From a virus, in IMG/VR virus record IMGVR_UViG_3300020183_000320, positions 1 to 31,025 of that record: a stretch of 31,025 nt of DNA; one strand, 5' to 3'. This document shows positions 7,883 to 27,474 of the stretch, piece after piece. Position 1 is the stretch's first letter; each line of letters opens with the position of its first letter. The translations under genes were made by a program, and so were the position numbers. The notes under the pieces were generated by a model. That model ran no database searches. It was not told the origin of the DNA and was given only the letters and a program-made list of their open reading frames with translations.

Positions 7883-9808
7883 ATGGCTAATATCGCCAAT
7901 GTGGCGGTCAAGGTCGGATTTAACGGTGCGGAGGCACTGGCTGGATCCGCTCAATTATCATCGGCGATGTTGAAGCTCGCCGAATCATCCGGCAAGGCTG
8001 GGAAATCATTCAAGACCCAGCAACTGGATCAGGCATCAAAGTCGATGCAGCAATTCGCTGATAAGGCGCGCGCCGCAGCCAAGGCGAGCAGTAATGTCTC
8101 AGGCAAGACATTGTTTGAAACTCTAGGGAGCAAGGGTGCAGCCGACGCTAAGGCGGGCCTCGAGATGATCCGCGGCGTCATGCAGACATTCGTGATGGTG
8201 CCGGCCCAGGCCATGATCTCGATCATGCGCATGGGCTCCGAGTTAGAGAACATGCAGACGATCGCGCGAGGACTTGAGACGCGTGTCGGTGGCGGCGCCG
8301 AGTCAATCGATCGCCTGCGCAAGATCTCGACCGGAACGGGCGCGCCGCTCGAGACGCTCAACAAGTCGATGCTGCAATTGTCGGCATCGGGCATGAGCAT
8401 CGAGGACGCGACGCGCGCCGTTGAGAAAACGGCCAACGCGATCACGGTCCTCGGTGGCACAGCCGAGGCCGCGGGTCTCGTCACGGGAGCGATCGGCTCC
8501 CTGCGCGAAAGCGCCATGGCGAGCGAGGGACCGCTGCGCCAATTGCAGGCCTCGGGCCTGAATGTGTTTGGCGCCCTGCAGAAAGAGATCAGCAGAGCGA
8601 CAGGCCAGGCCGTCTCCCTCGATGACGCGCTCAAGATGCTGCGCGAGGGATCCGTACTGTCGAGCACGGCGATCCGGGCGATATTCACGGCGAGCGAGGA
8701 TGCGGCGGGCGCCGCCCAGCAGATCGGCGACTCATTCGGTGGACAATTGCAGAAGTTGTCGGCCGGATTTTCGGACATGTTGCGCGAGCTCGGCCAGCAA
8801 GCCTTGAAACTGTTCGAGCCCGAGAAGGCGTTCGCCGCATTGCGCGGCGTGTTTGAGGGGATCATGGAGTCGGTGCGTGAGATCGCCGACGCATTCGCTC
8901 CCGTCCTCGATCCTGCCGAGAAGGGCAAGCAGCTCAAGGATTTATTCGATTCCGGAAAAGAGATCGGCAAGACCCTCGGCAAGGCGCTGATCGAGGCGGC
9001 CGCGACATTCAAGGAGTTGATGGCGGCGCTTCTCCCCGATCTCAAGACGATTCTCAAGGACATGCGCGGACTGACGCCAGGTCGCGCAGGACTGGCTGTC
9101 GCCAAGGGCGCGGCCGGGATCCCGTTCGAGTTCGGCAAGGACATCGGCATGCAGATCATGCGCGATATCGACAAGGGATTCGGCCTCGGTATCGCCCCTA
9201 ATGGCAACCTCGCGCAGATCATCAAGGAGACTGAAGAGCTCAAGGAAAAGCTCGGCGCCGGCAATTTCGAGGGCGGCGCCTCGGCAATGGGAGACTTCGG
9301 CGACGCGATCGAGGATGTCGATGATGTCACCGAGCAGTTCGTGGCCGACCTCATTCGACAAACAGAGGAGATGCGCCAGGCTAACCAGACCGTCGAGCGC
9401 CTGCGCAAGGATGCGCTCAAGAGCTCGATGACCGACGCTGAGAAGTTCGCCGAGATGATCTCGGCGATCGATGTGAAACTCAAGCAGGCGAGCGCAGCCA
9501 GTGAGGGCCAGCAGGCGCTCCTGCGCGAGGCGCTCGGCCGGCAGGTCGGTGCGCAGATCCAGTCGGCGATCCAAAAGTTCCGGTCGCAGCAGCAGGATCT
9601 CCCGAGCGCCCTGGTGGCCGGATCGGCGGCCGAGGTCGAGGCGCGCATCCGCGCCGAGCGCGGCATGCGCACCAACGAGGAGGAGGTGCTGGCCGCGCTC
9701 GACATGCAGACACGACAGTCAGAGCAGCAGACGAGCGCGCTCAAGGAGTTGGTCGCCATCGCGGCGGCAAACGGCCGCGCGCCCGCGACGCTCGTAATGC
9801 CGAAATAG
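7883..9808 (+). CDS. Tail tape measure protein
   Basis: A 641-residue helical protein that sets tail length and helps DNA ejection. The N-terminal 50 residues are the usual Ala/Lys/Ser-rich entry. Residues 100-330 carry the family core: ELENMQTIARGLETRVGGG, GAPLETLNKSMLQLSASGM, AITVLGGTAEAAG and the GSLRESAMASEGPLRQLQA block, followed by SFGGQLQKLSAGFSDMLREL. Long amphipathic helices with Gln/Glu heptads fill the C-terminal third. At 641 residues it is short for the family and suggests a fairly short tail, if the usual length rule holds. The start follows the chaperone stop by one base. Confidence 0.93.
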   Translation: MANIANVAVKVGFNGAEALAGSAQLSSAMLKLAESSGKAGKSFKTQQLDQASKSMQQFADKARAAAKASSNVSGKTLFETLGSKGAADAKAGLEMIRGVMQTFVMVPAQAMISIMRMGSELENMQTIARGLETRVGGGAESIDRLRKISTGTGAPLETLNKSMLQLSASGMSIEDATRAVEKTANAITVLGGTAEAAGLVTGAIGSLRESAMASEGPLRQLQASGLNVFGALQKEISRATGQAVSLDDALKMLREGSVLSSTAIRAIFTASEDAAGAAQQIGDSFGGQLQKLSAGFSDMLRELGQQALKLFEPEKAFAALRGVFEGIMESVREIADAFAPVLDPAEKGKQLKDLFDSGKEIGKTLGKALIEAAATFKELMAALLPDLKTILKDMRGLTPGRAGLAVAKGAAGIPFEFGKDIGMQIMRDIDKGFGLGIAPNGNLAQIIKETEELKEKLGAGNFEGGASAMGDFGDAIEDVDDVTEQFVADLIRQTEEMRQANQTVERLRKDALKSSMTDAEKFAEMISAIDVKLKQASAASEGQQALLREALGRQVGAQIQSAIQKFRSQQQDLPSALVAGSAAEVEARIRAERGMRTNEEEVLAALDMQTRQSEQQTSALKELVAIAAANGRAPATLVMPK

Positions 9809-9818
9809 GAGCGAGTCG

Positions 9819-10751
9819 ATGGCGTACACGCTATTCTCCGAGGTGCATTCAGGACGACAGGCGACTGTCGACGCCAAGTTCAACCGCACCTATCAGCGCG
9901 TTTTCCTGGTGCGAACAGATAACGCGACATACGGTCCCTACTACGCGGGCTCGCATCCGTCACTACCTGCGATATTCTCGCCGCATCCAGAGGACGCCCT
10001 TGCGTACTGTCTGACGCTCGCGCCGTCGCAGGATCAGGACGATCCGCTGCTCTGGCGAGTGGTCGCGACCTACGGCTACAACCTCGACATGACAGCCTCG
10101 GGATCGGCGCCCTCGGGCAATCCCGCGGTCGACACGCAGCAGCAGGGCGTGTCACCGGGATCACGCGTGCAGGCTCCCGGATCCCGAGGTCGTGACTATC
10201 AGATCGCAACGAACGCCCACAACATCGCCCTGTATCGCGCGATCAATGCCAGCACGAGCGCCCTCGAGGTCGTGCAGAACACAGCGGGAGAACCACTCCT
10301 GCCACCGTTGCAGGTGATGCGCGGCGGCGCCACGATCACGGCCGGCCTCAATTCGCTGACTCCGCCGACTGCCGCATGGATCGGAGCGATCGGCATGATC
10401 AATAGTGCATCATACACCGTCGGCCCGTATGTGATCGGCCAGTACCTGGCGAGACTCAATAGCGTCAACGCGCAACTAGTCTACGAAAACGATGTTTCAT
10501 ATTGGCGCTGGTCGATCGTGTTCGAGTATCGACCCAATGGATGGGGCACCACAGTCGCGAACATGGGAAAGAAAGTCAGGATCACCGCGGGCTCCGACAT
10601 CCTGAAAAACATCGAGATCAACGGCGTATCGATCTCGTCTCCTGTCTACCTGAATCCGACCGGCACGGCCCCCTGGGTGACGGCCGATGGCGACGCGGCT
10701 CGATATCGCACATATATCGGATATGACACGGTCGCATTCCCGAGCCTGTAG
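9819..10751 (+). CDS. Putative tail structural protein of unknown family
   Basis: 310 residues, directly after the tape measure, where distal tail and baseplate proteins lie. I do not recognise the family. It is mixed alpha/beta with many aromatic and Gly/Ser/Pro turns. The N-terminal 90 residues (FLVRTDNATYGPYYAGSHPS, ending in LLWRVVATYGYNLD) look like a beta-sandwich. The middle (about 100-125) is a low-complexity Ser/Gly/Gln linker, and the C-terminal half contains TAAWIGAIGMINSASYTVGP and SYWRWSIVFEYRPNGWG. No signal peptide or membrane helix is present. The ribosome binding site is AGGAGCG before 9819. A distal tail or hub role is an inference from position only. Confidence 0.6.
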   Translation: MAYTLFSEVHSGRQATVDAKFNRTYQRVFLVRTDNATYGPYYAGSHPSLPAIFSPHPEDALAYCLTLAPSQDQDDPLLWRVVATYGYNLDMTASGSAPSGNPAVDTQQQGVSPGSRVQAPGSRGRDYQIATNAHNIALYRAINASTSALEVVQNTAGEPLLPPLQVMRGGATITAGLNSLTPPTAAWIGAIGMINSASYTVGPYVIGQYLARLNSVNAQLVYENDVSYWRWSIVFEYRPNGWGTTVANMGKKVRITAGSDILKNIEINGVSISSPVYLNPTGTAPWVTADGDAARYRTYIGYDTVAFPSL

Positions 10752-10760
10752 GAGTCCGTC

Positions 10761-11336
10761 ATGCCGGGATACCTGCTCGACGAGGACTCGATTGCCCGAC
10801 TGGCAAAGATGCTGCGCGACTACGAGCAGGGCACGCTATTCAGTCCTGGCCAGACTGATCGCGATGATGCCGGCGAGTCTCCTGTCGTCCACTATGTAAG
10901 ATGCACATCGTCAACGCCTACTAGCGGCCTGTATCCTGGCGTCCTGCTCAGCTATGACGCAAGCGCCGGCACATATTCCGATGTTCAGAATGTCCGACTG
11001 CTCGAGATCAACGGCACCGTTCCGGTTGCGAATTTTCGTTATTTCGGCCGTTTTGCCGGCTATACGAGCGGCGGCGACACGGTTTACGCTATATCGGCCG
11101 CGGCTCCCACAACGACGACAACGACCACCACGACAACGACTCCTGCTCCGACTACCACGACCACGACGACCACTAGCACGACGACGACGACCACGACGAC
11201 GAGCACTACGACGAGCACGACGACGACGACGCCCGCTCCCCTGTCGATCTCGGTCGTCACCGCGATCACATGCGAGGATGGCGTGATCACGCCCGTCTAC
11301 ACGACGATCTGCATACCCGGCGGATATATCTGCTGA
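10761..11336 (+). CDS. Thr-tract (mucin-like) virion or tail-associated protein
   Basis: 191 residues in three parts. Residues 1-110 form a folded beta-rich domain (HYVRCTSSTPTSGLYPGVLL and FRYFGRFAGYTSGGDTVYAI). Residues 117-157 are almost pure Thr: 35 Thr, with Ser and a Pro-Ala-Pro between blocks. Residues 160-191 are a short hydrophobic beta tail with three Cys, ending GGYIC. Thr is written with a mixture of ACA, ACC, ACG and ACT, so the tract looks selected as protein rather than as a simple DNA repeat. Such tracts behave as stiff extended stalks and are preferred sites of O-glycosylation; two glycosyltransferase genes follow. The stop overlaps the next ATG by one base. Function is unknown. 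Confidence 0.75.
   Translation: MPGYLLDEDSIARLAKMLRDYEQGTLFSPGQTDRDDAGESPVVHYVRCTSSTPTSGLYPGVLLSYDASAGTYSDVQNVRLLEINGTVPVANFRYFGRFAGYTSGGDTVYAISAAAPTTTTTTTTTTTPAPTTTTTTTTSTTTTTTTTSTTTSTTTTTPAPLSISVVTAITCEDGVITPVYTTICIPGGYIC
11109..11231 (+). repeat. Thr-codon tract in the 191-residue protein
   Basis: A run of ACN codons interrupted by two Pro-Ala-Pro boundaries and three AGC serines. The third codon position varies freely, which argues for selection on the amino acids. Confidence 0.9.
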
Positions 11337-12652
11337 TGGCTTGCACAGGTTTCTGCGAATGGTTCTGGAATGGCTCCTCATGGGAGCTGATCAATGACAC
11401 ATGCTCGGAGGAATGCGAGCCATGCACGGCTCCGACCGAGCCACCGGATCCCGAGCTCGGAGACTATCTGACGGTTCAATGTCTTGCAACGACAACGACT
11501 ACGACAACGACGACAGAGGAACCGACTACCACCACGACCACGACTACGACAGAAGAACCGACAACGACTACGACTACGACGACAGAAGAACCGACAACGA
11601 CAACGACTACGACGACAGAAGAACCGACAACGACTACTAGCACGACCAGCACGACGACCACTAGCACGACAACGACTACTAGCACGACGACCACTAGCAC
11701 GACAACGACTACTAGCACGACCAGCACGACGACCACTAGCACGACAACGACTACGACTACCAGCACAACTCCGGCCTGCAGTGGCACCTGTATTTGGGCA
11801 TGGTCAGATTTCGAGAATGCCTGGTATATTTTCGATTCCGACTGTTTCGGAGTCGATGTCACCTGCCTTTGCGGCGATCCCCCATCAGAGCCCGGAGAGC
11901 ATGATGAGACAGTCGTCGTCGATTGCATCACGCCGACCACGACGACATCAACGACCACGACTCCGGCCTGTGAATGCACATGGCGCTGGAACGCGACCAG
12001 CGAAACATGGCTGGTAATTGACCGCGGATGCAATCCCGAGAACGAGACCTGTGATGGTGGCTGCTCGTATCCTCCAGATCCCGGCGAGGTCGACGGCGAA
12101 GAGACGACGACCGAGTGCGCTCCTCTCTACTGCTCCGACTGTTGCGGATCCGAGGACTGCTGTCCCACCACGACGACGACCACGACGACAAGCGGCTGCG
12201 GTTTCTGCATCTATATATGGTCCGAGGCGACTCAATCATGGAGCTTGCTCAGCGGATTTGAGGAGTGCAATCCAGGAGGTGAGGGCTGCGTATGCGGACC
12301 TGCTCCGACATATACGCCTCCCGGAGACGGAGTGACAGTCGTGGTCGATTGCGAACTGGTCGGACAGACACTCGCTCCCGAGGTCATGTCGGTCGAGTCG
12401 ACCAGCACGACTCCGCGCCCGCCGATCACGCCCGAGGCGCGTGCAATGCTGGCCGTCATCAAGGCGAGGATCCGCCTGCCGTGCGCGCACCTCGGGCCCG
12501 AGCTCGAGACTCGCAGCTCGTGCGGATGCGGAAAATCTTCGCTGCGCCATTCCTGCGGTATACTGGGCGAATGTCGAGTCTATGCGCCGAGGGCGACCGA
12601 CCAGATCGCTCAATGCGTGAAGTGCCCGCACTACGAGGCGCCGCATGGCTGA
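11336..12652 (+). CDS. Multi-domain Cys/Trp-repeat protein with Thr stalks (mucin-like surface or fibre protein)
   Basis: 439 residues. Four copies of a roughly 50-residue domain occur at about 3-50, 148-198, 212-261 and 288-340. Each has the pattern Cys-x(1-3)-Cys or Cys alone, then aromatic-x-Trp, about eight residues, Trp or Ser-Trp-x-Leu, an acidic Cys, a Cys-x-Cys or Cys-x-x-x-Cys, a Pro-Pro turn and a final Val/Thr-x-Cys. Between copies 1 and 2 lies a 94-residue stalk (52-145) with 73 Thr and 9 Ser, including four EEP-spaced Thr blocks. Shorter Thr linkers sit between the other copies. Residues about 375-436 form a separate Cys-rich zinc-ribbon-like domain ending in CVKCPHYEAP. No signal peptide. 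Copies are probably disulfide- or metal-stabilised beads on glycosylated stalks; that is inference. The gene overlaps the next glycosyltransferase gene by 8 nt, which suggests coupled production. Confidence 0.8.
   Translation: MACTGFCEWFWNGSSWELINDTCSEECEPCTAPTEPPDPELGDYLTVQCLATTTTTTTTTEEPTTTTTTTTTEEPTTTTTTTTEEPTTTTTTTTEEPTTTTSTTSTTTTSTTTTTSTTTTSTTTTTSTTSTTTTSTTTTTTTSTTPACSGTCIWAWSDFENAWYIFDSDCFGVDVTCLCGDPPSEPGEHDETVVVDCITPTTTTSTTTTPACECTWRWNATSETWLVIDRGCNPENETCDGGCSYPPDPGEVDGEETTTECAPLYCSDCCGSEDCCPTTTTTTTTSGCGFCIYIWSEATQSWSLLSGFEECNPGGEGCVCGPAPTYTPPGDGVTVVVDCELVGQTLAPEVMSVESTSTTPRPPITPEARAMLAVIKARIRLPCAHLGPELETRSSCGCGKSSLRHSCGILGECRVYAPRATDQIAQCVKCPHYEAPHG
11489..11770 (+). repeat. Thr/Ser stalk-coding tandem repeats
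   Basis: Two kinds of tandem unit lie side by side. The first is a roughly 33-36 bp unit coding Thr blocks closed by Glu-Glu-Pro (four copies, to about 11626). The second is an ACT-AGC-ACG-ACN unit coding Ser-Thr blocks to 11770. The units differ in synonymous positions. Copy number probably varies between relatives. Confidence 0.85.
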
Positions 12653-13520
12653 TCCGCTGCTGACGATCGGGATGGCGACATACGACGACCCGCAGGGCGT
12701 CTGGTGGACGCTGTCTAGCCTGCGACTGCATCATGTCGGGATCCATGATCCGCGGATCGAGTTGCTCGTAATCAACGATCACCCCCAGGAGTGCCAGGAT
12801 CTCAAGAACGCCTGCGCCAACGCGGGCGCGCACCTGATCAACAGGTCAAAAAATCTCGGGCCCGCGCACGCGAAAAACACGATCTGGGAGCAGGCGACCG
12901 GACAGTATGTCCTGATGCTCGACTGTCATGTCCTGCTCGGCAACGGATCAGTCAAGTACATCATCGACGCGATCAATCAGGACAAGATCGGCAAGGATAT
13001 GTGGGTCGGACCCCTGCTCAACGAGAGGGGCGGGATCATCGCGACCGAGCTCCTGCCTCAGCTGCGCGGCGAGTTCTTCGGTATCTGGCATGTCGCCGCC
13101 GATCAACCAAACAAAATCCGCGAGGTGCATGCGCACGGGAGCGCATACGCTCTGATGCGTCGTGATTGTTGGCCAGGATTCTCGGAGCATTTTCGAGGAT
13201 TCGCCGGAGAAGAAATCTACATTCACGAAAAGGTCAGGCGCGCCGGTGGCAAGGTGATCTATCATCCGGCGCTGTCATGGTCTCATCGGTTCTGCCGATT
13301 CGCGCCCGTGCCGTATTCGTTGACGATCAATGACAAGGCCCGCAACTACCTGATCGCGGCGCACGAGATGGGCTGGAACATAGGACAGTTCCAATCCTAT
13401 TTCGCCAAGCGCCTGGCGCGCGACCAGATGATCGTCGTCGAGCGCGAGGTCGCCGCGATCTATCCTGACGCGTTCACTCGTGACTGCTCCGACATCCCGA
13501 GGTTCAGGGAGATCGACTAA
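12645..13520 (+). CDS. Glycosyltransferase, GT-A fold, polypeptide-GalNAc-transferase-like
   Basis: A 291-residue soluble transferase. The N-terminal part is GT2-like: LLTIGMATYDDPQGVWWTL, then ELLVINDHP, then NLGPAHAKNTIWEQATGQYV. The metal motif at residues 93-95 is Asp-Cys-His, i.e. the DxH form found in GalNAc-transferases (GT27) rather than the DxD of most GT2 enzymes. The C-terminal half keeps the same family's pattern: HAHGSAYALMRRDCW, GFAGEEIYIHEKVRRAGG (equivalent of the Gly-Gly-Glu-Asn loop) and HPALSWSHRF. GT27 enzymes add GalNAc to Thr/Ser of mucins. The gene starts inside the end of the Thr-stalk protein, so that protein is the obvious candidate substrate. The sugar donor cannot be read from sequence. 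Confidence 0.82.
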   Translation: MADPLLTIGMATYDDPQGVWWTLSSLRLHHVGIHDPRIELLVINDHPQECQDLKNACANAGAHLINRSKNLGPAHAKNTIWEQATGQYVLMLDCHVLLGNGSVKYIIDAINQDKIGKDMWVGPLLNERGGIIATELLPQLRGEFFGIWHVAADQPNKIREVHAHGSAYALMRRDCWPGFSEHFRGFAGEEIYIHEKVRRAGGKVIYHPALSWSHRFCRFAPVPYSLTINDKARNYLIAAHEMGWNIGQFQSYFAKRLARDQMIVVEREVAAIYPDAFTRDCSDIPRFREID

Positions 13521-13521
13521 A

Positions 13522-13776
13522 ATGGATAACCAAAACTACGGCGCTCCGTATCTCCTCTACGCGATGGGCGCATCGATGGCGGGCGCCGCATGGTGGCTCG
13601 CCGTCAACATCCTCATCCCGGTGCGGGATGATCATCGGGAGTTTTTGAAAAAGCTCGATCGCAACCTCGAGAAACTCAGCGATCAGGTCGAGACCCTGCC
13701 GTGCCGCGTCTCGGCCCTGCATGAGCGAAACTCGGCGAATAACGCGCCATCGCGCACGGTGGAGGTGAGGACATGA
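13522..13776 (+). CDS. Small membrane protein with C-terminal coiled coil (holin candidate)
   Basis: 84 residues: a short N-terminus, one hydrophobic segment (about 9-32, LLYAMGASMAGAAWWLAVNI) and a charged amphipathic tail with heptad-like leucines (EFLKKLDRNLEKLSDQVETL). Such single-span proteins with a cytoplasmic coiled coil occur as holins or holin accessories in phages, but a structural or exclusion role is equally possible. The stop overlaps the next start by 4 nt, and a papain-type peptidase lies two genes on. Confidence 0.6.
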   Translation: MDNQNYGAPYLLYAMGASMAGAAWWLAVNILIPVRDDHREFLKKLDRNLEKLSDQVETLPCRVSALHERNSANNAPSRTVEVRT

Positions 13777-14426
13777 TCTACCTAGTGCTGGCATGCTGCG
13801 CGCAGCTCACACTGCCGGCGGAGATCAGGGCGGAGCCTGGGACATTCGTCACGATCACGGCCGATACGCGTGGCTCGATCGTGCGATATGTGCCACTCGA
13901 TGCCGGCCTGCAGGTTTTCCCGGCGCACCTGCTGGCCGACAAAAAGAGCACAGTCGTGCTCTCACTCACGCCAGGGCGATATCGTGTCCTCGGATACACG
14001 GCCATCGATGGCAACCCCACCGAGCCCGCGGTCGTGTCGGTCGTGATCGGTGAGCGGCCGACACCTCCTGACCAGGTGCCCGATCATGCTGCGCTCCTGT
14101 CGGCCCTGTCCGGTATCTGGGGCGGGCATGTCGAGCGTGACAAGGACAGGAAACTCGACGCCCTGATCGCGACCTATCGCGCCATCGAGTCGATCACGGC
14201 CGACGAGAAGATCAAGACTACTGACGCGCTCATGCGGGCCTGCGTCGAGGCGCGCAAAAAGGCGGGCCTCGCTGATGACGCGATCCTGCCGATCAGGCAG
14301 AGGATCACCGAGGAGTGGACACGCGCCCTCGGTGACGCCGACGCGCCGATGACGCCCGAGCTACGGGCCCGAGCCCGAGGCGTCGCGACCAAGGTTCTGC
14401 GCGCACTGGAGGGACTGCGATCATGA
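13773..14426 (+). CDS. Putative lipoprotein with beta-sandwich domain
   Basis: 217 residues. It begins MIYLVLACCAQLTLP: a very short hydrophobic N-terminus with a Leu-Val-Leu-Ala-Cys lipobox-like site, though without the usual basic n-region. Residues 15-95 are an Ig-like beta domain (EPGTFVTITADTRGSIVRYV and LTPGRYRVLGYTAIDGNPTE). The rest is helical and Arg/Ala rich. The beta domain resembles a domain that recurs in planctomycete proteins and their phages. The enzyme-free sequence suggests a surface, lysis-accessory or exclusion role. Overlaps of 4 nt on both sides tie it to its neighbours. Confidence 0.55.
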   Translation: MIYLVLACCAQLTLPAEIRAEPGTFVTITADTRGSIVRYVPLDAGLQVFPAHLLADKKSTVVLSLTPGRYRVLGYTAIDGNPTEPAVVSVVIGERPTPPDQVPDHAALLSALSGIWGGHVERDKDRKLDALIATYRAIESITADEKIKTTDALMRACVEARKKAGLADDAILPIRQRITEEWTRALGDADAPMTPELRARARGVATKVLRALEGLRS

Positions 14427-15313
14427 GTGACTGGTATACGCCGGGATGGATCGATGATCCGGCCGCGGTCGAGGAGGTCGTGTCGACGCTGGTCGAGCCC
14501 GACATCTCGTCGACGCCGATCGGATCCGTGAGCGACCTGCCAGAGCGCGTGCATCTCTGGGACGCGGCGCGCAAGGTTCTCGGCACGCTCCTGCCACCGC
14601 GTAACCAGGGGCGAGTCGGATCGTGCGTCGGATTCGGGACGGCGCGCGCGATCGAGTACACGATGCTGTGCGAGATCGCGGCCGGGGAGCCCGAGGAGTT
14701 CGAGGCGCTGGCGGCCGAGGTGATCTACGCCGGCGCCCGCGTCGAGGTCGGCAATCGCAGGATCCGCGGCGATGGCGCGATTGGCGCGCATGCCGCCACA
14801 TGGGCGCGCGACTGGGGCGTGCTGGCCAGGCAAAAGTATGGCGACATCGACCTCGGATCCTACAGCGAGACACGGGCTCGCGAATGGGGAGATCAGGGCG
14901 TGCCCGACCAGCTCGAGGCCATCGCGAAAAATCATCCGGTGCGGCAGGTGACACGAGTCAAGACATGGCTCGACGCCAAGCGCGCCCTGGCGTCCGGATA
15001 CGCGATCTCGATCTGCAGCACTCAGGGATTCGCCATGAGGCGGGACAGCAACGGCGTCGCGGCGTCAAACGCTCGATGGGCTCACTGCATGACGCTCTGC
15101 GGATACGATCGACTCGGACAGGACGAGATCGGACGCATCGATAACTCATGGGGACCGGACGCGCACACGGGTCCGGTCGGTGCCGGCAATCCCGGCCCCG
15201 AGGGATTCTACGCATACGACGAGGTGATCAATGGCATGCTGGCGTCAGGCGACGCCTGGATATTCGCGAATGTCAACGGGTTCGTTAGGAGGTCTCTACC
15301 ATGGCTGATCTGA
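14423..15313 (+). CDS. Papain-like cysteine peptidase (C1A type)
   Basis: 296 residues with all four papain-type marks: the oxyanion Gln62 and catalytic Cys68 in NQGRVGSCVGFG, catalytic His221 in ARWAHCMTLCGYD and Asn241 in DNSWG. There is no signal peptide and no inhibitory propeptide. In a phage it may cut a host surface protein, process a virion protein or serve as the cell-wall or envelope lysin; no other lysin is recognisable in the window and a holin-like gene lies 650 nt upstream. It could also act on the Thr-stalk proteins. The start overlaps the previous stop; the last 13 nt overlap the next gene. Confidence 0.85.
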   Translation: MSDWYTPGWIDDPAAVEEVVSTLVEPDISSTPIGSVSDLPERVHLWDAARKVLGTLLPPRNQGRVGSCVGFGTARAIEYTMLCEIAAGEPEEFEALAAEVIYAGARVEVGNRRIRGDGAIGAHAATWARDWGVLARQKYGDIDLGSYSETRAREWGDQGVPDQLEAIAKNHPVRQVTRVKTWLDAKRALASGYAISICSTQGFAMRRDSNGVAASNARWAHCMTLCGYDRLGQDEIGRIDNSWGPDAHTGPVGAGNPGPEGFYAYDEVINGMLASGDAWIFANVNGFVRRSLPWLI

Positions 15314-15606
15314 TCGAACAGTACCAGCGAGTGCGCGCGCTCGCCCGCGGTCAGGAGAGCTGGACATCCCTAACGATGGCGGCCTGCCTGGCCGTGCAGG
15401 CGCAGGCGCTACAGAACATGCACAGCGTCCGAGCCAGCAAGACGCCGCTCGGTGACGCGATCCCCGACCCGAAACCGTTGCGCGTGTGGGCCGAGGAGGT
15501 TCTCGACGACCTGCTGGCGCAACGGGATCCGACTCCCGAGGCATGGCGCATCCTTGCCGAATACTGCGCCGATCGCATCCGTGTGCATGCGCTCGAGGGA
15601 TCCTGA
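15301..15606 (+). CDS. Small helical hypothetical protein
   Basis: 101 residues, Ala/Leu/Arg-rich and mainly helical, without Cys-pair, membrane or signal features. A strong ribosome binding site AGGAGG lies 8 nt before the ATG, inside the end of the peptidase gene. I do not recognise it. Its stop overlaps the start of the second glycosyltransferase, so the three genes form one unit. Confidence 0.65.
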   Translation: MADLIEQYQRVRALARGQESWTSLTMAACLAVQAQALQNMHSVRASKTPLGDAIPDPKPLRVWAEEVLDDLLAQRDPTPEAWRILAEYCADRIRVHALEGS

Positions 15607-16340
15607 TGCTGCCGTTCGTGTCCTGCCTGTGTCCGACATACGGCAGACCTGAATGTGTCGAGGAGGTCATCGAGTCATTTTTGCGGCAGGATTATCGAGG
15701 GAAAAAGGAGCTCATCATTGTCAACGATCTTCACGATCAGCGACTCATCTATGATCATCCCGAGATCCGACTAGTCAACGCCAAGGCGCGCGTGACGCCA
15801 CTGGGCGCGAAGTTCAACGCGGTCGCATCGATGGCGCAGGGCAATGTGCTGCTCGTCTGGGAGGACGACGACATCTACCTGCCGCACCGGATCAGCTACT
15901 CGATCGACCACATGCAGCGCGGGATATGGCACACGCCGATCGCATGGTATGAGGAGTCGCTGGGCGAGGTGATCCCGGCGCGCAACCTATTCCACGCGAA
16001 CCTGGCGATTGATCGCACCGCGTTCTGGTCGGTCGGCGGATACGAGGAGTCCGACTGGCCGGGCATCGATACGCGACTGTTCGAGTCGCTCAACCGCATC
16101 TATGGGAATGTCCATACGACGATATCGCATCACGAGGCTTACTATATCTACAGGTTCGGGACATCGGGACGATGTCACGCCAGCAACTGGATTGGTGAAG
16201 GGCAGACGAGCGCGCATGCCGAGCGCATCGCTCACGATGATCTACGATCGGGACGACTGACCGCGGGCGACATCACGCTGCGCCCGCAATGGCGACGGGA
16301 TTATGCCGGCATGGTCGCGAGGGCGAGGGCGAAACTATGA
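15606..16340 (+). CDS. GT2-family glycosyltransferase
   Basis: 244 residues. The GT-A core is clear: VSCLCPTYGRPECVEEVIES, ELIIVND, then ARVTPLGAKFNAVASMAQGN and the metal motif WEDDDIY (Asp 87-89). A later GGYEESDWPGIDTRLFE carries the usual acidic acceptor-loop residues. It is shorter than the first glycosyltransferase and has the classical DxD instead of DxH, so the two are likely to do successive, different steps, for example priming and extension of a glycan on the same protein. The acceptor is not shown by the sequence. The start at 15606 overlaps the previous stop by one base. Confidence 0.88.
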   Translation: MLPFVSCLCPTYGRPECVEEVIESFLRQDYRGKKELIIVNDLHDQRLIYDHPEIRLVNAKARVTPLGAKFNAVASMAQGNVLLVWEDDDIYLPHRISYSIDHMQRGIWHTPIAWYEESLGEVIPARNLFHANLAIDRTAFWSVGGYEESDWPGIDTRLFESLNRIYGNVHTTISHHEAYYIYRFGTSGRCHASNWIGEGQTSAHAERIAHDDLRSGRLTAGDITLRPQWRRDYAGMVARARAKL

Positions 16341-16561: not shown

Positions 16562-17374
16562 TCAGTCTGTGCAATTGCACGGCAGGGTTTCATCGTCGGG
16601 AAAATCAATTTCATTTTGAGATTTCGCCATGTTTATCAGTGCTCTATAACTAGGTCTATCCCATCTGAAATATCCTCTTTTTGCACTTGGCAATGGCTGT
16701 TCTTCGGCTTGCGCCCACCACTCAAGCAGTTCAGGATATTGTTTGGCGATGAGACTGATTTTTTTTGTTCCTTTTAAGAAACACCCAACACAGTTTCCCA
16801 ATAGTCTCGGAATATCCAACCTAAATGATTGATTGGCCCAAAATCTTTCAACATCTTCCAATGTGTGTTTGGCATGAAACATTGGACAATAAGCTTCATT
16901 TCTTCGAGAATTTGCTCTTACCTTGGCGACCCTATGCGGTTCGTCATAGCGCAAGCCTATACACTCAATATGACCCTCAATAAATTCTGGTATGTATTCA
17001 GACCATCTATCTAATGTTTGTATTTTAAGTTCAACGGTGCAAAATCTGGTAATCGGATTTGGCAGATAGTTTCTTTCCCTGATAAGTAAATTGAAGGGTT
17101 CTCCGTTCCTGCTCGCTGTTGCGTAGTTTACTTGCTTCCATTTTTTTTTCCCATCGTACTCAAGCCAAACAACCTCCACTCCCCATTCCAGAGAACATCT
17201 CTCGATGAATTTCAGAGTCTCCTCATGCTCAAGCCCGGTGTTTGCGAATGCTGCTTTGATGTAGTTTGGCAATTTGCCACCATGAGCGTCTATAATTTGT
17301 CGCAGCATGAAACCGGAAGTTGCTCCACCAGAAAAGGATATTACGGTTGGATCTTTGATTTCATATGGATTCAT
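16562..17374 (-). CDS. PAPS reductase / N-type ATP pyrophosphatase family protein
   Basis: 270 residues. The ATP-binding PP-loop SGGATSG is at 15-21. The family's RFCTVELK (Cys112, Lys117) follows, then HIECIGLRYDEP and the Cys pair CVGCF (195-198), with further Cys at 163 and at the C-terminal CNC. The fold activates a substrate by adenylation and is shared by PAPS reductases, thiouridine-type enzymes and DndC-like DNA phosphorothioation proteins. Phage members are of unknown function, and some relatives sit in defence islands. The Cys set could hold an iron-sulfur cluster. A leader with AAAGGA upstream of the ATG gives a good ribosome binding site. It is alone in its cassette, antisense to the neighbours and AT-rich, so it is probably expressed from its own promoter. 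Confidence 0.8.
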   Translation of the reverse strand: MNPYEIKDPTVISFSGGATSGFMLRQIIDAHGGKLPNYIKAAFANTGLEHEETLKFIERCSLEWGVEVVWLEYDGKKKWKQVNYATASRNGEPFNLLIRERNYLPNPITRFCTVELKIQTLDRWSEYIPEFIEGHIECIGLRYDEPHRVAKVRANSRRNEAYCPMFHAKHTLEDVERFWANQSFRLDIPRLLGNCVGCFLKGTKKISLIAKQYPELLEWWAQAEEQPLPSAKRGYFRWDRPSYRALINMAKSQNEIDFPDDETLPCNCTD

Positions 17375-19505: not shown

Positions 19506-19525
19506 TCAGTCCTCAGGTTCGCACC
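19506..19525. repeat. Distal copy of 20-bp direct repeat flanking the methyltransferase
   Basis: Identical over 20 bases to 20714-20733. On the minus strand it supplies the last three codons and the stop of the methyltransferase, so the inserted gene ends inside a duplicated piece of its neighbour. Confidence 0.9.
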
Positions 19526-20709
19526 ACATCCGAAAACATCGGCGAGTCTTGCGTGATCCGATTTTCGGCTAGTCTCGCATACTCCGGGTTGAGTTCGCAC
19601 AGGATTGCGTTGCGGTGTAATTGATCGGCGACAAGCGCCGTCGTGCCAGCGCCGCCGAACGGATCGAGGACGGTGCAGGGCACGGGCGAGCCGCCGCAGG
19701 TGCATGCGGGACGCCAGCCGGTGGTGCGATTGGGGTTTGCATCTCGCCAGTCTTGATACGCTTGTCCGACCTTCCGATGCACGCCAGCGTCTCCGGTGCC
19801 GTATCGGTCAAGATCGCTCGCCGCAACCTTGGGCATTTCCGGCTTCTCCACCACCCTCTCCCACGGCTTGCCACAAGTCGGGCAGCATCCCTTTTCGCTG
19901 GTGCCGGCCTTGATGCACGGCTCCACAAGGTCGGGCGGGAATGTGGCGAAGTGTGCGCCGCTGTAGGGCTGCGTGGCGACCGTCCAGACGGAGCGGCGGT
20001 TGCGGGTGCCGTCATCGACTCGCTCTGCATCCTTTGGGCCGCCCGTGTTTTGCTGATAGCGGCCACCCATCTTGCCTTCGCGGAAGAATCTCGCTGACTG
20101 TCCCTGCCGCCCAGTGCTGGCCTCCTTCACCGCCTCCGCATCGTAGAAATACCGCTCGCTCTTGGTGAGCAGGAACACGTACTCATGCGCCTTCGTGCAG
20201 CGGTCCCGCACGCTCTCGGGCATCGGGTTCGGCTTGTGCCAGATGATGTCCTGCCGCAGATACCAACCGTCCGCTTGCAGGGCAAAAGCGACGCGCCACG
20301 GGATGCCGACAAGGTCTTTTTGCTTGAGTCCGGGCGGGTTAGTTGTCGGCGGTCGCCATTTTTCCAAACCGTCATAACTGGATTGGTGCGCGCTGCTCCC
20401 GCTAATTATTTCCCTTTGCGTACCCTTGCCCCTGTTCTGACCGCCATAGTTTCCCCACGATCCCGCATACGAATCCCCAAGATTCAGCCACAGCGTCCCG
20501 TCATCCCGCAGCACCCGCCGCACTTCACGGAACACATCGACCATTTTGGAAACATATGCTTCCGGCGTGTCCTCCAACCCGATTTGCCCGTCGTGCCCGT
20601 AGTCGCGCAGCCCCCAGTACGGTGGACTTGTCACGCAGCAATGCACGGATTGATCAGGCATCGCCTTCATCGACTCGACGCAATCGCCAACTATTATTTT
20701 TACAGACAT
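19513..20709 (-). CDS. DNA methyltransferase, beta-class (N4-cytosine or N6-adenine)
   Basis: 398 residues. The catalytic motif IV TSPPYW (27-32) comes first and the cofactor motif I DPFGGAGTT near residue 355, the order of beta-class amino-methyltransferases. Ser-Pro-Pro-Tyr is common in N4-cytosine and also some N6-adenine enzymes. Between them lie IGLEDTPEAYVSKMVDVF, LWLNLGDSYAGSW, DIIWHKPNPMPESVRDR and a CCPTCGKPW pair that with CTCGG forms a zinc ribbon. It probably protects phage DNA from a host restriction enzyme or marks it. No partner nuclease is adjacent. It holds the only ACGT I found in the window, which with the flanking repeats suggests recent arrival. The start chosen is the ATG at 20709, after the neighbour's stop. 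Confidence 0.92.
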   Translation of the reverse strand: MSVKIIVGDCVESMKAMPDQSVHCCVTSPPYWGLRDYGHDGQIGLEDTPEAYVSKMVDVFREVRRVLRDDGTLWLNLGDSYAGSWGNYGGQNRGKGTQREIISGSSAHQSSYDGLEKWRPPTTNPPGLKQKDLVGIPWRVAFALQADGWYLRQDIIWHKPNPMPESVRDRCTKAHEYVFLLTKSERYFYDAEAVKEASTGRQGQSARFFREGKMGGRYQQNTGGPKDAERVDDGTRNRRSVWTVATQPYSGAHFATFPPDLVEPCIKAGTSEKGCCPTCGKPWERVVEKPEMPKVAASDLDRYGTGDAGVHRKVGQAYQDWRDANPNRTTGWRPACTCGGSPVPCTVLDPFGGAGTTALVADQLHRNAILCELNPEYARLAENRITQDSPMFSDVVRT

Positions 20710-20713
20710 CTGG

Positions 20714-20733
20714 TCAGTCCTCAGGTTCGCACC
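20714..20733. repeat. Proximal copy of 20-bp direct repeat flanking the methyltransferase
   Basis: Codes the last residues (CEPED) and stop of the small gene; identical to 19506-19525. Confidence 0.9.
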
Positions 20734-20878
20734 GACACGCACCGCGGAGCAACTCGATGATCACCAGCAGCTCCGACAGGTGCGGGTGCGATTCGACATG
20801 CAGTCCATATCGCCTCGCCAAGTGCTGCACGATCAGTCGCGCCCTGGCTGCCAGCTCATCGATCTCGACCTGATTCAT
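20714..20878 (-). CDS. Small helical hypothetical protein
   Basis: 54 residues, MNQVEIDELAARARLIVQHL followed by a second helix and ending CRCEPED. The stop lies in the 20-bp repeat. Its ATG overlaps the upstream stop (ATGA) and a GAGGAC precedes it. No family recognised. Its 3' end is the source of the repeat that bounds the methyltransferase cassette. Confidence 0.65.
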   Translation of the reverse strand: MNQVEIDELAARARLIVQHLARRYGLHVESHPHLSELLVIIELLRGACRCEPED

Positions 20879-21873: not shown

Positions 21874-22561
21874 TGTACGACTTGAGCCACGCCAGCAATT
21901 CCATCCGCCCAGCCTGATCGAGTTTCTCGACCGCCCTGATGGCGCGCTCCAATGGAGTCGGCACCCTGATGATGCCGGCCTGAATGGCGGCGGCGCGAAC
22001 GGAGCCCCGCCTCTCGTTCTCAGGCAGCGCCTCCAGGCGCGCGCGCTCCTCGGCAGGGAGCTTGCGGAAGTCAGCTTGCTGATGCGGTTCGGTGATCCAT
22101 GCGGGGATTACTACCTTTTGTTGCATATTGCAACTTTCGGTAGTAATAGCTCGATCAATCTTTGCCACCATTTGCTGAGAACACCCCACCGCGTCGGCCG
22201 TCGCCTGTTGCGTTTCACCGGGGTGAGTGGCGCGGCGCTCACGGATGGCTTGGGTCTTGGTGATGACGGCGCCAACAGTTTGCCCGCGTTCAGCTTTTAG
22301 CAAGGCCTCAACTTCATCAGGAGACAGTTTCAATCGTGTCGAACACAACATGTCAAAAGAAAGAAGATCCAAGGCTTTCCATGTCTCATGCTGTTGTATT
22401 TCGACAAGAAGGCCGCGAAGCAATTGGGCATCGAAATCCAAACGGTCGCGCCCCAATTTAGCTTGAGCGACAATCCACAAAGCCCAAGACCTTGAACCTG
22501 CCGGCGCGTCGCGATTACCAACCTCATCAAGTACAGATACGCGCACAGATTTGGCGTGCAT
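21833..22561 (-). CDS. ParB/KorB-like DNA-binding protein, mosaic composition
   Basis: 242 residues. A helix-turn-helix lies at about 115-138 (ETQQATADAVGCSQQMVAKI), with the N-terminal half helical and the C-terminal part (residues 154-230) a Leu/Glu/Arg-rich domain (RKLPAEERARLEALPENERR). It resembles ParB-type partition or transcription factors, without the Arg-rich CTPase motif. The N-terminal half is AT-richer than the C-terminal half, with the change near 22110-22130, so the gene may be a recombination hybrid. A nested palindrome at 22107-22147 sits at that junction. It starts at ATG 22561 (GGAGG upstream), 35 nt inside the helicase end. Confidence 0.65.
   Translation of the reverse strand: MHAKSVRVSVLDEVGNRDAPAGSRSWALWIVAQAKLGRDRLDFDAQLLRGLLVEIQQHETWKALDLLSFDMLCSTRLKLSPDEVEALLKAERGQTVGAVITKTQAIRERRATHPGETQQATADAVGCSQQMVAKIDRAITTESCNMQQKVVIPAWITEPHQQADFRKLPAEERARLEALPENERRGSVRAAAIQAGIIRVPTPLERAIRAVEKLDQAGRMELLAWLKSYTPPVGVARRHTSR
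22107..22147. repeat. Nested palindrome inside the ParB-like gene
   Basis: Outer arms ATTACTACC (22107-22115) and GGTAGTAAT (22139-22147) pair perfectly; inside, GTTGCA (22120-22125) and TGCAAC (22129-22134) pair around TAT. Four mismatched bases separate the two levels. It could be a protein-binding site or an RNA hairpin. Confidence 0.75.
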
Positions 22562-24137
22562 ATTTTAAGCCCTCCAAACTTAGATCTTCAATCTTCTTAA
22601 AATTAAGCTCTTTATGTAAAAGTTTCTGATGTGTGCCAGCAGATCGTTCCTTGACGAAGTCGGCCCGGCTACAAGACTTATGTATCTCCTTGCGTATCTC
22701 CATTTCTTGTTGCGTAATTGTCTTGTCATTGAACGATCTTGGTGGATTATTTCGCAGCAGATCAACAAATTGAGCCGCTAACGGATGATCTGAAGCGATA
22801 CCAGCATTTTGACATACTTCGCGGAATTGTAATTCGAAAGGACTACTTTCAATTTGACCGTCAAGCATTTGCGCGGACACGGATGTGAGCTCGCCGCTGA
22901 TTGGGACGAAGCCGGTTTCATCCGATCGTGATGCTGGCCCTGAACCAATTTGACGATCAGTTGAAAACCGGACAACACCTTGCTGCTCTGACCGTATGCG
23001 CTCAATTACCCGATTCATTCGGGGATCATTTGGAACAAATGCGAAGCACCTATTTTTAGTCGGGGTGGCTCTCCACGCTCTTGCCAACATTTGCGTGATC
23101 CACGGCGTCGATCTAATATGCGTCAGGCAAGCCAAGTGAGTTATAGATGGGACATCAAGTCCCTCATAAGCCATTTGGCAGGTGACAAGACAATCAAAGC
23201 GTCCGCTCCTGAACTGATCAATGTCACCATACGGATCATTCGAATCCGTTATAGCCAAGCCCGTGCTGATTCCACGCCGCTGCAAATCTTTGTAATACCT
23301 TCTTGCTGATGACTGATCCGCTGTGACGACGAGCAACTTTCCGCTTGTGCCAGAATACTTGCAATGATCAACGCAACTTGAAAGGATCTGGTCGGCAAGA
23401 TCAGTCCTCAAAGCTGTCCAGATAGCTTGAGATTCATTTTCCGATTCAACTCCCGACAAGAGCGCATCTTTAACACCGTCCCTTTCTTGCCAGCTAATTG
23501 GGCCATCATGATAGTGGAACTCGACCGGAACTATCGCGCCCTCGCCGAGTGCTGTCGGCCTGTCATATTCAATGACTGACCCATCAAACGACTTGATATC
23601 AGGCTCATATCCTTTTGAAGTTTCACGATAAGGCACATTGTAAATAAAGGAGTTGTCATTGGTCTCGAGCGTTCCGGTCATACATACGCGGATTTTGTAT
23701 TCAAGTTTTTCAATCGACCTTGTCAATGGATTGCGTTTGCCATCATTAAAAATTTTCGCGTGATGCAACTCATCGATGACAAGAAGATATGGGCTCTTGT
23801 TCAACTCGTGCTGCCACAACTCCGGATTTGCCATCAAGGATGAATGAGTAGCAACAAATCCGCGGGTATTTCGGCTCGGATTGATGTCATTTCCGCTTTC
23901 CCTTATATCAATCCCGAAGTCCTTCTTCATTCCAAGCGCGGCCTGGCGAGCCAGCGAAAGACGAGGAACAAACCAAGCCAGCTTTAGATTCCGATGATGT
24001 TGTAAGAAGATGCCAGGTATCCGAGATTTGCCACCGCCAGGCGTGACTGGCATAAGCACATTGTACGGATATTTATTTTCTGTAATTAAACTTGCAACAA
24101 GTCGCGCGTCAGCCTGATGCTTCCTGTCAGTAGTCAT
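22527..24137 (-). CDS. SF2 DNA helicase (DEAD/DEAH-type), AT-rich
   Basis: 536 residues from the ATG at 24137, which overlaps the HNH stop (ATGA). Motif I TPGGGKS (32-38), Ia VPRLSLARQA, motif II DELHH (122-126), motif III TGT (154-156), then LLVVTADQSSARRYY, LVTCQMAYEGLDVPS and motif VI QMLARAWRATP. This set resembles type I and III restriction and phage replication helicases. Placed next to a small HNH nuclease it may work as a replication helicase, a homing pair or a defence-type complex. The gene is AT-richer than the primase and small genes around it, hinting at transfer. Confidence 0.88.
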   Translation of the reverse strand: MTTDRKHQADARLVASLITENKYPYNVLMPVTPGGGKSRIPGIFLQHHRNLKLAWFVPRLSLARQAALGMKKDFGIDIRESGNDINPSRNTRGFVATHSSLMANPELWQHELNKSPYLLVIDELHHAKIFNDGKRNPLTRSIEKLEYKIRVCMTGTLETNDNSFIYNVPYRETSKGYEPDIKSFDGSVIEYDRPTALGEGAIVPVEFHYHDGPISWQERDGVKDALLSGVESENESQAIWTALRTDLADQILSSCVDHCKYSGTSGKLLVVTADQSSARRYYKDLQRRGISTGLAITDSNDPYGDIDQFRSGRFDCLVTCQMAYEGLDVPSITHLACLTHIRSTPWITQMLARAWRATPTKNRCFAFVPNDPRMNRVIERIRSEQQGVVRFSTDRQIGSGPASRSDETGFVPISGELTSVSAQMLDGQIESSPFELQFREVCQNAGIASDHPLAAQFVDLLRNNPPRSFNDKTITQQEMEIRKEIHKSCSRADFVKERSAGTHQKLLHKELNFKKIEDLSLEGLKYARQICARICT

Positions 24138-24334
24138 TTCTTCCCCTTTCTCAAATTGCATTTCGGACACAGTGCTTGCATGTCATGCACATTGGTGGTG
24201 CCAGACTTGCTCCAAGGGATGACATGGTCGGCGTGCCAGTCGGCTGGAAGATCGGTTCCGCATATCTGGCACTTGCCGTTGGCGGCGATCCACAGCGCGG
24301 CTCGCAATCGCTTGCTGCACAGTCTCCTGCCCAT
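24134..24334 (-). CDS. Minimal HNH endonuclease
   Basis: 66 residues from ATG 24334 with GGAG 5 nt upstream. It has CQICG, then HADHVIPWSKSG (catalytic His), then TNVHDMQALCPKCNLRKG (Asn and Cys pair): a complete HNH with a zinc ribbon and little else. Such minimal HNHs are packaging or homing nucleases. Its stop overlaps the helicase start. A 220-nt run of stem-loops lies upstream of it. Confidence 0.85.
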   Translation of the reverse strand: MGRRLCSKRLRAALWIAANGKCQICGTDLPADWHADHVIPWSKSGTTNVHDMQALCPKCNLRKGKK

Positions 24335-25255: not shown

Positions 25256-27256
25256 TCAGACCCCTCCTACCAACTGATACCGATAGATCGATCCCCTCGA
25301 TCCATCACCTGACTGCCGGACACGCCCGGCTATCATCAGCTCGTGCAGCAGACGCTCGGTGCGCGCCTGCGTTAGCTCGCATTTGACGGCCCACTCGCGG
25401 GCGGTCATAGGATTCGCGTCGAGCACGGCCAGCAAGCGCGCGCGATCACGCGCCTGCTCCGCGCCCTTCAGGTCGCCGGCGACGACATATCGACCCTCGA
25501 CGAGGTCGATAACCAGGTCTTTTGGTACATGTGACGCGCGACTGTCACCTGACAGGTGACGCATCGTCGTCTCGCCATCGCCCTGCAATTTGCTTAGGTT
25601 CAATATGATTTCAGCGAACCCGTTGAACGCGATGCTGCCTCGGCTCGAGGTGATCGTGTCATCGCCCGCGGTCACTGACTTCCTAATGTGATGCACTAGC
25701 ACTATAGCCACGCCCGACTTGTTCAAAGCCCACAAGGGCTGGAGCGCGTTGTCCACATCGGTGGCGTCGTTCTCGTCTGAGATTGGGAGATTGCGACTCA
25801 TCGTGTCGATGATGAGCACCTCGGCGCCGAATGCCTGGCAGTCCGCGACAGTGGCCGCGACCCATTCCGACCACTGCACGCGTGTCGGTCTCGATGGAAA
25901 CGGCCGCACATACCATCCGCAGTAATCGGCGATCCCGAGATCCGCGATCCGCTGCGCAATCGTCGGCTCATCCTCCTCGGACATGACGAGCACCTTGCAC
26001 GGTCTGGTCGCCCTCTCCAGAAAATCCTCTCCCGTGCCGAGGGCGCGGATCATGTGCGCCAGCAGCGTCGTCTTGCCGGCCTTGGGGTGCGCGCTCAGGA
26101 TCGTCGTCTGGCCGGCACTCAGGATCCCGTGCACGATCCATCGCTGGTCATCGTCGATCCGGCGCAACTCGGACGATAGCTTGTATCGACGAGCTGGCGC
26201 AGTGCCCGACTCAGGAGACTCGGTCGTGCCCGTTTTAGGTGCGGCCAGAACGCCACAGGGCGCGGGCTCTGGCACATAGCCAAGATCACGCAGCTCGCGG
26301 GCGCACTCGGAAAAATTCCCTGCATGTCGCAGGATCGCGCGCGCACCAAACAGCGAGTATGTTTTGCCGGCCTCGAACGGTTGAGCGTTGCTACTGAAAA
26401 CATAGAGCAGGGATCCGCCGACATCACCGCGGCAGTGCCCTGTCGTGGCGCTGGTCCCCTCATCCTTGCCGGGCCTGCGCCAGCGTGTGATGCCCGCGTT
26501 TGTTGCGAGCTCGACCCATCCCTCGGGCACGAGAAGATCGCGCCACTCCCCGCGTGCGTTGTAGATGTTGCCGGGGCCGTCACCCTCCAGATCGACAGGA
26601 CGCTGACTCGGAGCGGGAGTCGGCAGGGACTTCGAGGCGCCCGTCGCGACCAGGGCGTTCATGCTCTCGCACATGCTGAGCAGTTTGCTCACCGCGGATG
26701 CCGGCCACACGCACGCGTCGTCCGATCCGTGATATCGCATCCATGTGTACGGCCGCATGCTGGAGTGCACCTCGGCGCGCGATCCCGGCGCGACGACATA
26801 GTGTCCCTCGCCCCTGGTCTCGATCCAGACATCGCCCTCGAGGTCGCGTGCCAGGACACGCCCACCAGGAGGGGCGTCCTGCATGTGCATGTAGATGTGT
26901 CGGCCGCCCGAGGGCGTGACCGCTACCGATGACTCAAGCAAGAGCTGCATAAGCTCGTGATCACCCTCAGCGAGAAAAATCAAGCTCGTGTACGCGGTCT
27001 CGCTCTCGAGGTCGAGCACGAGGAGGTTACGGCTGATTCGACCGCACACGACGCCGATTCCGTAGGCCGCGTCAGCATGACCGAACCAGTGGTCGATCTC
27101 ACGGTCGAGCGGATGCGCCGAACGGTACGGTGACCAGGATCTTCGGCCGTCATGCTCTGGCAGGTGACGGCCTGATGGAGTCTTGTTTCGCCCGATAGGA
27201 AAAATGCTGTACCCATCAGCCAGCAAATTTTTCGCGCTCATGTGCACATCGATCAT
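25256..27256 (-). CDS. Primase-polymerase with RecA-like helicase domain
   Basis: 666 residues from ATG 27256 (GTG 27259 has slightly better spacing to AGGAGG). The N-terminal Prim-Pol domain shows GYSIFPIGRNKTPSG, the metal-site DLE (about 83-85), SGGRHIYM and the Trp-Ile-Glu-Thr-Arg-Gly to VVAPGS segment. Residues 230-310 are the linking domain (WRRPGKDEGTSATTGHC). Residues about 370-560 are RecA/RepA-like: Walker A HPKAGKTT (390s), Walker B VLIIDTMS, LVHHIRKS and GSIAFNG. A C-terminal winged-helix follows. It likely primes and unwinds the phage replication fork. Part of the leftward operon with CsrA-like and SSB-like genes on either side. Confidence 0.9.
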   Translation of the reverse strand: MIDVHMSAKNLLADGYSIFPIGRNKTPSGRHLPEHDGRRSWSPYRSAHPLDREIDHWFGHADAAYGIGVVCGRISRNLLVLDLESETAYTSLIFLAEGDHELMQLLLESSVAVTPSGGRHIYMHMQDAPPGGRVLARDLEGDVWIETRGEGHYVVAPGSRAEVHSSMRPYTWMRYHGSDDACVWPASAVSKLLSMCESMNALVATGASKSLPTPAPSQRPVDLEGDGPGNIYNARGEWRDLLVPEGWVELATNAGITRWRRPGKDEGTSATTGHCRGDVGGSLLYVFSSNAQPFEAGKTYSLFGARAILRHAGNFSECARELRDLGYVPEPAPCGVLAAPKTGTTESPESGTAPARRYKLSSELRRIDDDQRWIVHGILSAGQTTILSAHPKAGKTTLLAHMIRALGTGEDFLERATRPCKVLVMSEEDEPTIAQRIADLGIADYCGWYVRPFPSRPTRVQWSEWVAATVADCQAFGAEVLIIDTMSRNLPISDENDATDVDNALQPLWALNKSGVAIVLVHHIRKSVTAGDDTITSSRGSIAFNGFAEIILNLSKLQGDGETTMRHLSGDSRASHVPKDLVIDLVEGRYVVAGDLKGAEQARDRARLLAVLDANPMTAREWAVKCELTQARTERLLHELMIAGRVRQSGDGSRGSIYRYQLVGGV

Positions 27257-27474
27257 CACTTATTACCCTCCTGGTTCGATGCGTCTAGGTCGACATCCTC
27301 GTCGTACCTGCTGATCTTGATGCTTGGTCGGCACGCCAGTCGCAGGCGCACACTACCTCGGCCGATCTCCTGAACCGTGATCACTCCGAGGATCATCGGA
27401 TCCTCGTCGTCGTTGCGCTGGATGTGCAGAACGACATTTTCTCCGCGCCGTCTCGTCAGACTTAATCCTCGCAT
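27256..27474 (-). CDS. CsrA-like translational regulator
   Basis: 72 residues from ATG 27474, 6 nt after GGAGG. The pattern is close to CsrA: LSLTRRRGENVVLHI (family Leu-Thr-Arg-Lys-x-Gly-Glu-x-Val-x-Ile), then ILGVITVQEIGRGSVRLRL (Val-Arg-Leu core) and RPSIKISRYDEDV (the second RNA-contact strand with Arg). CsrA binds GGA in leader hairpins and blocks or promotes translation of mRNA. A phage copy could redirect host or phage expression. It has an insertion of 6-8 residues after the first strand. It overlaps the primase start by one base and lies under the previous gene's C-terminal tail. Confidence 0.72.
   Translation of the reverse strand: MRGLSLTRRRGENVVLHIQRNDDEDPMILGVITVQEIGRGSVRLRLACRPSIKISRYDEDVDLDASNQEGNK

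Follow-up and report, generated by a model that had tools for sequence, protein, structure and literature searches.

The question raised by this locus is whether a phage glycosyltransferase, whose gene overlaps that of a threonine-tract protein, glycosylates the threonine tracts coded beside it. The window, i.e., the whole stretch of DNA analyzed, is the 31,025-bp IMG/VR virus record IMGVR_UViG_3300020183_000320, positions 1–31,025. It carries the head/tail block of an uncultured tailed phage: TerL, portal, protease, major capsid protein, neck, tail terminator, tail proteins, and tail assembly chaperone. The tail block is followed by a probable tape-measure gene, g310, Thr1, Thr2, and the gene for the DxH glycosyltransferase, with a second glycosyltransferase gene, GT2b, 2 kb further on. 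The features are as follows.

7883–9808, + strand: probable tail tape-measure protein, 641 aa, judged from its place after the tail assembly chaperone and its retention upstream of the threonine and DxH genes in close relatives
9819–10751, + strand: g310, a 310-aa protein whose fold has no assignment, between the tape measure and Thr1 and in the same place in close relatives
10761–11336, + strand: Thr1, 191 aa, with a helix plus beta domain (residues 1–115), a 35-Thr tract (116–158), and a Cys-bearing tail
11106–11234, + strand: DNA coding the Thr tract of Thr1
11336–12652, + strand: Thr2, four Cys/Trp modules linked by Thr tracts, plus a C-terminal Cys-rich domain
11489–11773, + strand: DNA coding the main Thr2 tract
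12645–13520, + strand: DxH glycosyltransferase, GT-A fold, 291 aa (PF00535, conserved residues, and Foldseek)
13480–13776, + strand: 98-aa protein with one hydrophobic stretch, probably a membrane protein judging from its sequence, kept within the close clade only
15603–16340 (the better start), + strand: GT2b, second GT2 enzyme with a DDD motif, probable extender (PF00535)

No PHROG match was found for the tape-measure candidate, nor did g310 match anything in PHROG, Pfam, or NCBIfam.

The Thr1 stop and the Thr2 ATG overlap in TGATG. Although the longest Thr2 ORF opens at 11270, translation probably begins with the ATG at 11336. The Thr1 tract has 11 + 24 = 35 Thr, and the main Thr2 tract has 73 Thr within residues 52–146; on recount, both figures agreed exactly with those of an earlier, sequence-only reading of this DNA. 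(ACN)8 has 13 matches in the window, whereas 100 shuffled sequences average 0. The same reading described the ACN codons as freely varying. All four codons are indeed used, with entropies of 1.52 and 1.85 bits in the tracts, but the Thr2 tract consists in part of DNA-level tandem repeats, with units of 33 to 75 bp and 81–100% matches. Thus, the tract has grown partly via duplication.

The repeated module of Thr2 is C-x(3)-C-x-[YW]-x-W, with Thr tracts between modules. Cys/Trp modules beside the tracts are conserved in relatives, which confirms the Thr1 and Thr2 reading frames. The C-terminal Cys-rich domain of Thr2 is an ORF of its own in most relatives. In the relative L003, the DxH enzyme of which is 95% identical, the Thr2 modules and tract lengths are already different, as fits recombining stalks. 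The Thr1 tract is internal in the window protein and C-terminal in most relatives; that is, its position is variable and its presence constant. In a fold search, the Thr1 N-domain hit nothing beyond weakly matching ribosomal proteins (E ≥ 0.02), and profiles of the Cys/Trp module and of Thr1 found no convincing match in the PDB.

The gene for the DxH enzyme overlaps Thr2 by 8 nt (12645–12652), as the sequence-only reading had it. The enzyme matches PF00535 (GT2) with an E value of 6e-10 and 39.7 bits, the gathering cut-off being 23.3. Its DxH motif, D93-C-H95, lies in the context MLDCHVLL and is at the expected place in 207 of 210 family domains. In GT27, metal is coordinated by the DxH plus a further His. 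In the phage enzyme's family, which spans 31–95% identity, D93, H95, E189 and E190 (a GEE-type motif), and a distal H214 are fully or almost fully conserved. The DxH gene evolves under purifying selection: dN is 0.023 against a dS of 0.221 for one relative and 0.147 against 0.990 for another.

How closely does the enzyme resemble the polypeptide GalNAc-transferases, i.e., GT27, with which the sequence-only reading had likened it? The two have the DxH motif and the GT-A fold in common. An AlphaFold (AF2) model with a pLDDT of 80.8 and a pTM of 0.82 finds polypeptide GalNAc-transferases as its top Foldseek matches, the best in the PDB being GalNAc-T2 (E 1.3e-12). Bacterial GT2 structures score almost equally, however (AvpGT, 4e-12; GlfT2, 1e-11), so that Foldseek separates the two groups weakly, and identity to the structural matches is 12–16%. 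The sequence profiles match polymer-type glycosyltransferases first; their best link to GT27, ppGalNAc-T12, is not significant (E 0.48, profile A2). A C-terminal ricin-type lectin domain is usual, though not universal, in GT27; Pfam finds none in the phage enzyme and gives GT2-type matches alone. No signal peptide is apparent by eye. Thus, the likeness stands for the motif and the Foldseek ranking and weakens with the nearly equal bacterial folds and the profile result. Since bacterial GT2 folds score close and the sequence profiles miss GT27, we label the protein a DxH GT-A enzyme resembling GT27 and claim no GT27 membership. Nor does resemblance to a ppGalNAc-T imply GalNAc as the donor.

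The second GT2 enzyme reported 2 kb on is likewise present, with GT2b matching PF00535 at an E value of 1e-9 and 38.8 bits, above the gathering cut-off. Three genes separate it from the DxH gene, coding for a small membrane-like protein, a 217-aa protein, and a papain-like peptidase (PF00112). The peptidase, at 14423–15313, could serve lysis or processing. When GT2b relatives were fetched independently, 15 of 23 loci had a local DxH-family gene, mostly with a Thr tract upstream, and this pairing is also present at 24–34% GT2b identity. GT2b adjoins the DxH gene in L032 and L033 and lies divergently beside it in L042 and L045; in the phage L535 the two enzymes are a single fused protein. Methyltransferase-like regions are found downstream of the DxH domain in the DxH ORFs of L529, L530, and L536, and beside GT2b in L042 (4326–5210) and L045 (4198–5073), − strand. 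The Pfam match to Methyltransf_24 is weak and limited to L529 and L530, the others being judged by eye. These regions may possibly serve methylation of a glycan.

If the DxH enzyme acts on Thr tracts, the two should occur together in other phages. Viral relatives were fetched through the enzyme alone, and the 39 loci with enough upstream sequence were counted. A Thr tract is coded within the fetched DNA at 34 of these 39 DxH loci and at 0 of 102 control loci, the latter chosen by Gly tracts. Across the analysis, controls were selected by Gly tracts or at arbitrary positions, which falls short of full randomization. The control region L489, taken from a tract listing and hence not random, was left out. 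In a wider viral set, with a threshold of at least 15 Thr per 30 aa, the figures are 41/57 versus 1/56 (Fisher p 2e-16). Many viral loci belong to one close clade, and near-duplicates are among the loci counted, such that these raw counts overstate independence and counts by cluster are fairer: a Thr-rich ORF lies within 3 kb in 23 of 29 viral clusters at 70% identity, compared with 13 of 249 background ORFs. At 40% and 50%, single-linkage clustering suffered from chaining and gave no useful grouping. Only four relatives came from a terminase search, a number that could not support a contingency table across the clade. Among INPHARED phages, no match was found for three members of the DxH family.

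The five viral exceptions (L044–L048) are larger phages; three of their contigs code Thr tracts elsewhere, and the remaining two are 41–46 kb. In the wider set, several more large contigs with no local tract have (ACN)7 elsewhere, as against 1 of 29 control contigs. The sequence-only reading had held that relatives keeping the transferase, with no Thr tract anywhere, would speak against it. No clear case emerges, given these distant tracts, yet exceptions remain: nine DxH contigs (G004, G006, G133, G135, G136, G139, G141, G143, and G147) have no (ACN)7 tract, although these records may be partial and some contain shorter Thr-rich stretches.

One alternative is that these phages commonly carry Thr-tract fiber genes and that the DxH gene sits beside them by history, with no action on their products. 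Thr tracts are in fact widespread among viral contigs, and one clade supplies many of the loci. The pairing nevertheless holds at 31–47% glycosyltransferase identity, in different gene contexts, and in bacteria (see below), with control rates near zero. We regard simple carry-over as the least probable of the alternatives, and quite improbable in itself. The pairing of the DxH enzyme with Thr-tract genes is real and recurrent.

The converse does not hold. The enzyme is coded at 3 of 120 Thr-tract loci and 0 of 118 Gly-tract loci, and it was found nowhere in 50 Thr-tract records, for which a positive control was run. In L130 and L141, both from the converse scan, the Thr ORF overlaps the glycosyltransferase ORF as in the window. 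Thus, Thr tracts alone fail to predict the enzyme, and other Thr-tract phages would have either no glycosylation or other enzymes. A generic enrichment of GT2 genes near Thr tracts was rejected, with 5/50 versus 4/50 records over the cut-off.

The absence of the enzyme from most Thr-tract phage loci counts in favor of a second alternative, namely that the glycosyltransferases alter the host surface (lipopolysaccharide or a cell-wall polymer), for example to block superinfection, with the Thr tracts serving as unmodified flexible linkers and the proximity to tail genes being incidental. GT2 enzymes often make surface polymers, and it is polymer-type enzymes that come first in the sequence profiles. 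This proposal leaves unexplained why the overlapping Thr-glycosyltransferase gene order is found repeatedly and why different phages show the same pairing, as do bacterial loci, there with small exported peptides that have Thr tails. On balance we think it unlikely.

The bacterial loci were found by profile scans of genome contigs. Nothing related came up with the close alignment, A1, and the broader alignment, A2, gave 78 homologous loci in many phyla, with DxH homologs at 30–38% identity; Rhodococcus erythropolis and Bradyrhizobium diazoefficiens are among the carriers. At 32 of the 78 loci, the homolog is adjoined by small peptides with twin-arginine-like signals and Thr tails. In many loci, the small proteins combine such a signal with the motif W-[ST]-K-P...PAHA ahead of a tail rich in Thr. 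A Thr-rich ORF (at least 13 Thr per 30 aa) is present at 31 of 66 bacterial loci and in none of 32 control regions, which come from enzyme-carrying genomes (p 3e-7). Counted by 70%-identity clusters, 25 of 46 are flanked by a Thr-rich ORF no more than 3 kb away, versus 0 of 96 background ORFs. About half of the bacterial loci have no strong Thr-rich neighbor at the threshold used. At some, the glycosyltransferase is fused to an HprK-related kinase-like domain, a match that falls below the NCBIfam cut-off, with PqqD and NTP_transf_5 genes close by. The HprK-fused DxH loci are within L313–L390, e.g., L343 (6654–10307) and L316 (6519–9314). With their Tat-signal PAHA peptides, the HprK/PqqD/NTP_transf_5 loci apparently constitute an undescribed bacterial peptide-modification locus.

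Apart from the enzyme and its Thr-rich neighbor, the bacterial loci and the phage genes have little in common, and this speaks for the neighbor being the substrate. The functional link that the sequence-only reading drew between the Thr-tract genes and the DxH enzyme, and its proposed check in related phages, are borne out by co-occurrence in divergent phages and, unexpectedly, in bacteria as well. It could still be supposed that the enzyme modifies other sites of the Thr proteins, i.e., Asn-x-Ser/Thr or the Cys/Trp modules, the tracts being coincidental spacers. Asn-x-Ser/Thr motifs are present in the Thr2 modules, and these modules are kept with the surrounding genes in their clade; partners in other phages and in bacteria have no such modules, however, and the Thr-rich tract is the main common part. 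We consider modification at other sites very unlikely.

What is observed comprises the gene order, the sequence motifs, the fold as predicted, the selection on the DxH gene, and the recurrent pairing. We think it likely that these reflect a dedicated cassette, in which the Thr tracts of Thr1 and Thr2 are O-glycosylated by the DxH enzyme and the resulting glycan is lengthened by GT2b. What follows on the reaction and its site on the substrate, on which enzyme acts first, on the place in the virion, and on any benefit is our inference. In the infected cell, Thr1 and Thr2 would be made beside the DxH enzyme, from overlapping genes, and the enzyme would use a nucleotide-sugar as donor to glycosylate the hydroxyls in their Thr tracts. 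GT2b would attach a second sugar afterwards. The glycan-covered tracts may then form stiff stalks on the tail that hold the Thr2 Cys/Trp modules and the Thr1 beta domain apart, and any benefit might lie in adhesion or shielding.

The proposed cassette has counterparts in known systems. In animal mucin-type O-glycosylation by GT27, the substrates are Thr-rich stalks, as predicted for the phage. Gram-positive serine-rich repeat adhesins, e.g., Fap1, have dedicated glycosyltransferases beside them (PMC5207161, PMC6973325). They likewise combine a low-complexity, hydroxyl-rich stalk with enzymes from their own gene cluster; the phage cassette differs in having Thr repeats instead of Ser, in its DxH enzyme, and in being phage-borne, and no accessory Sec-type genes were recognized among the scanned window proteins. 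Mycobacteriophages Che8 and Rita are described as having virion O-glycosylation (Freeman et al. 2023, as cited in PMC11256854 and PMC11652166), in which phage-encoded glycosyltransferases act on virion proteins, as proposed for the window. By these accounts, capsid or tail proteins are decorated in mycobacteriophages, in contrast with the long Thr tracts, DxH enzyme, and overlapping genes of the window. In the literature covered, which included few subscription journals, the pairing is not described among reports on poly-Thr phage proteins, GT27 in phages, or HprK/PqqD bacterial loci.

We favor, with some reserve, a broader proposal: that the DxH proteins form a new polypeptide O-glycosyltransferase family of phages and bacteria, dedicated to poly-threonine stalks and a prokaryotic and viral counterpart of the mucin-type enzymes. 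Its phage members would come with an extender glycosyltransferase and some methyltransferase-like fusions, and its bacterial members with the HprK-like fusion, PqqD-type genes, and Tat-type Thr peptides. It is probable that prokaryotes, and the viruses that infect them, build threonine stalks coated with sugar in the manner of mucins. If so, mucin-type glycosylation of threonine stalks extends beyond animals and their relatives, with phages carrying a compact cassette and bacteria applying a related enzyme to exported peptides. Enzyme and substrate would then make a defined pair, open to testing, and the enzyme, a small polypeptide glycosyltransferase, would be a candidate for use in biotechnology. 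Some of the Thr-rich proteins of viral metagenomes might be accounted for in this way.

Several observations concern the rest of the window. A PAPS-reductase-like protein (phrog_424), a phage auxiliary gene, lies at 16562–17374 on the − strand, and PHROG matches identify DNA methyltransferase, helicase, and primase/polymerase-like genes at 19513–20742, 22527–24170, and 25256–27259, all on the − strand. The window begins with CCAGAACGCGTTTTTGT (positions 1–60), 94 bp before TerL. L190, L191, and L192 share this start, which suggests a fixed genome end. At the opposite end of the window, head-tail adaptor and head closure genes are found at 29664–30658.
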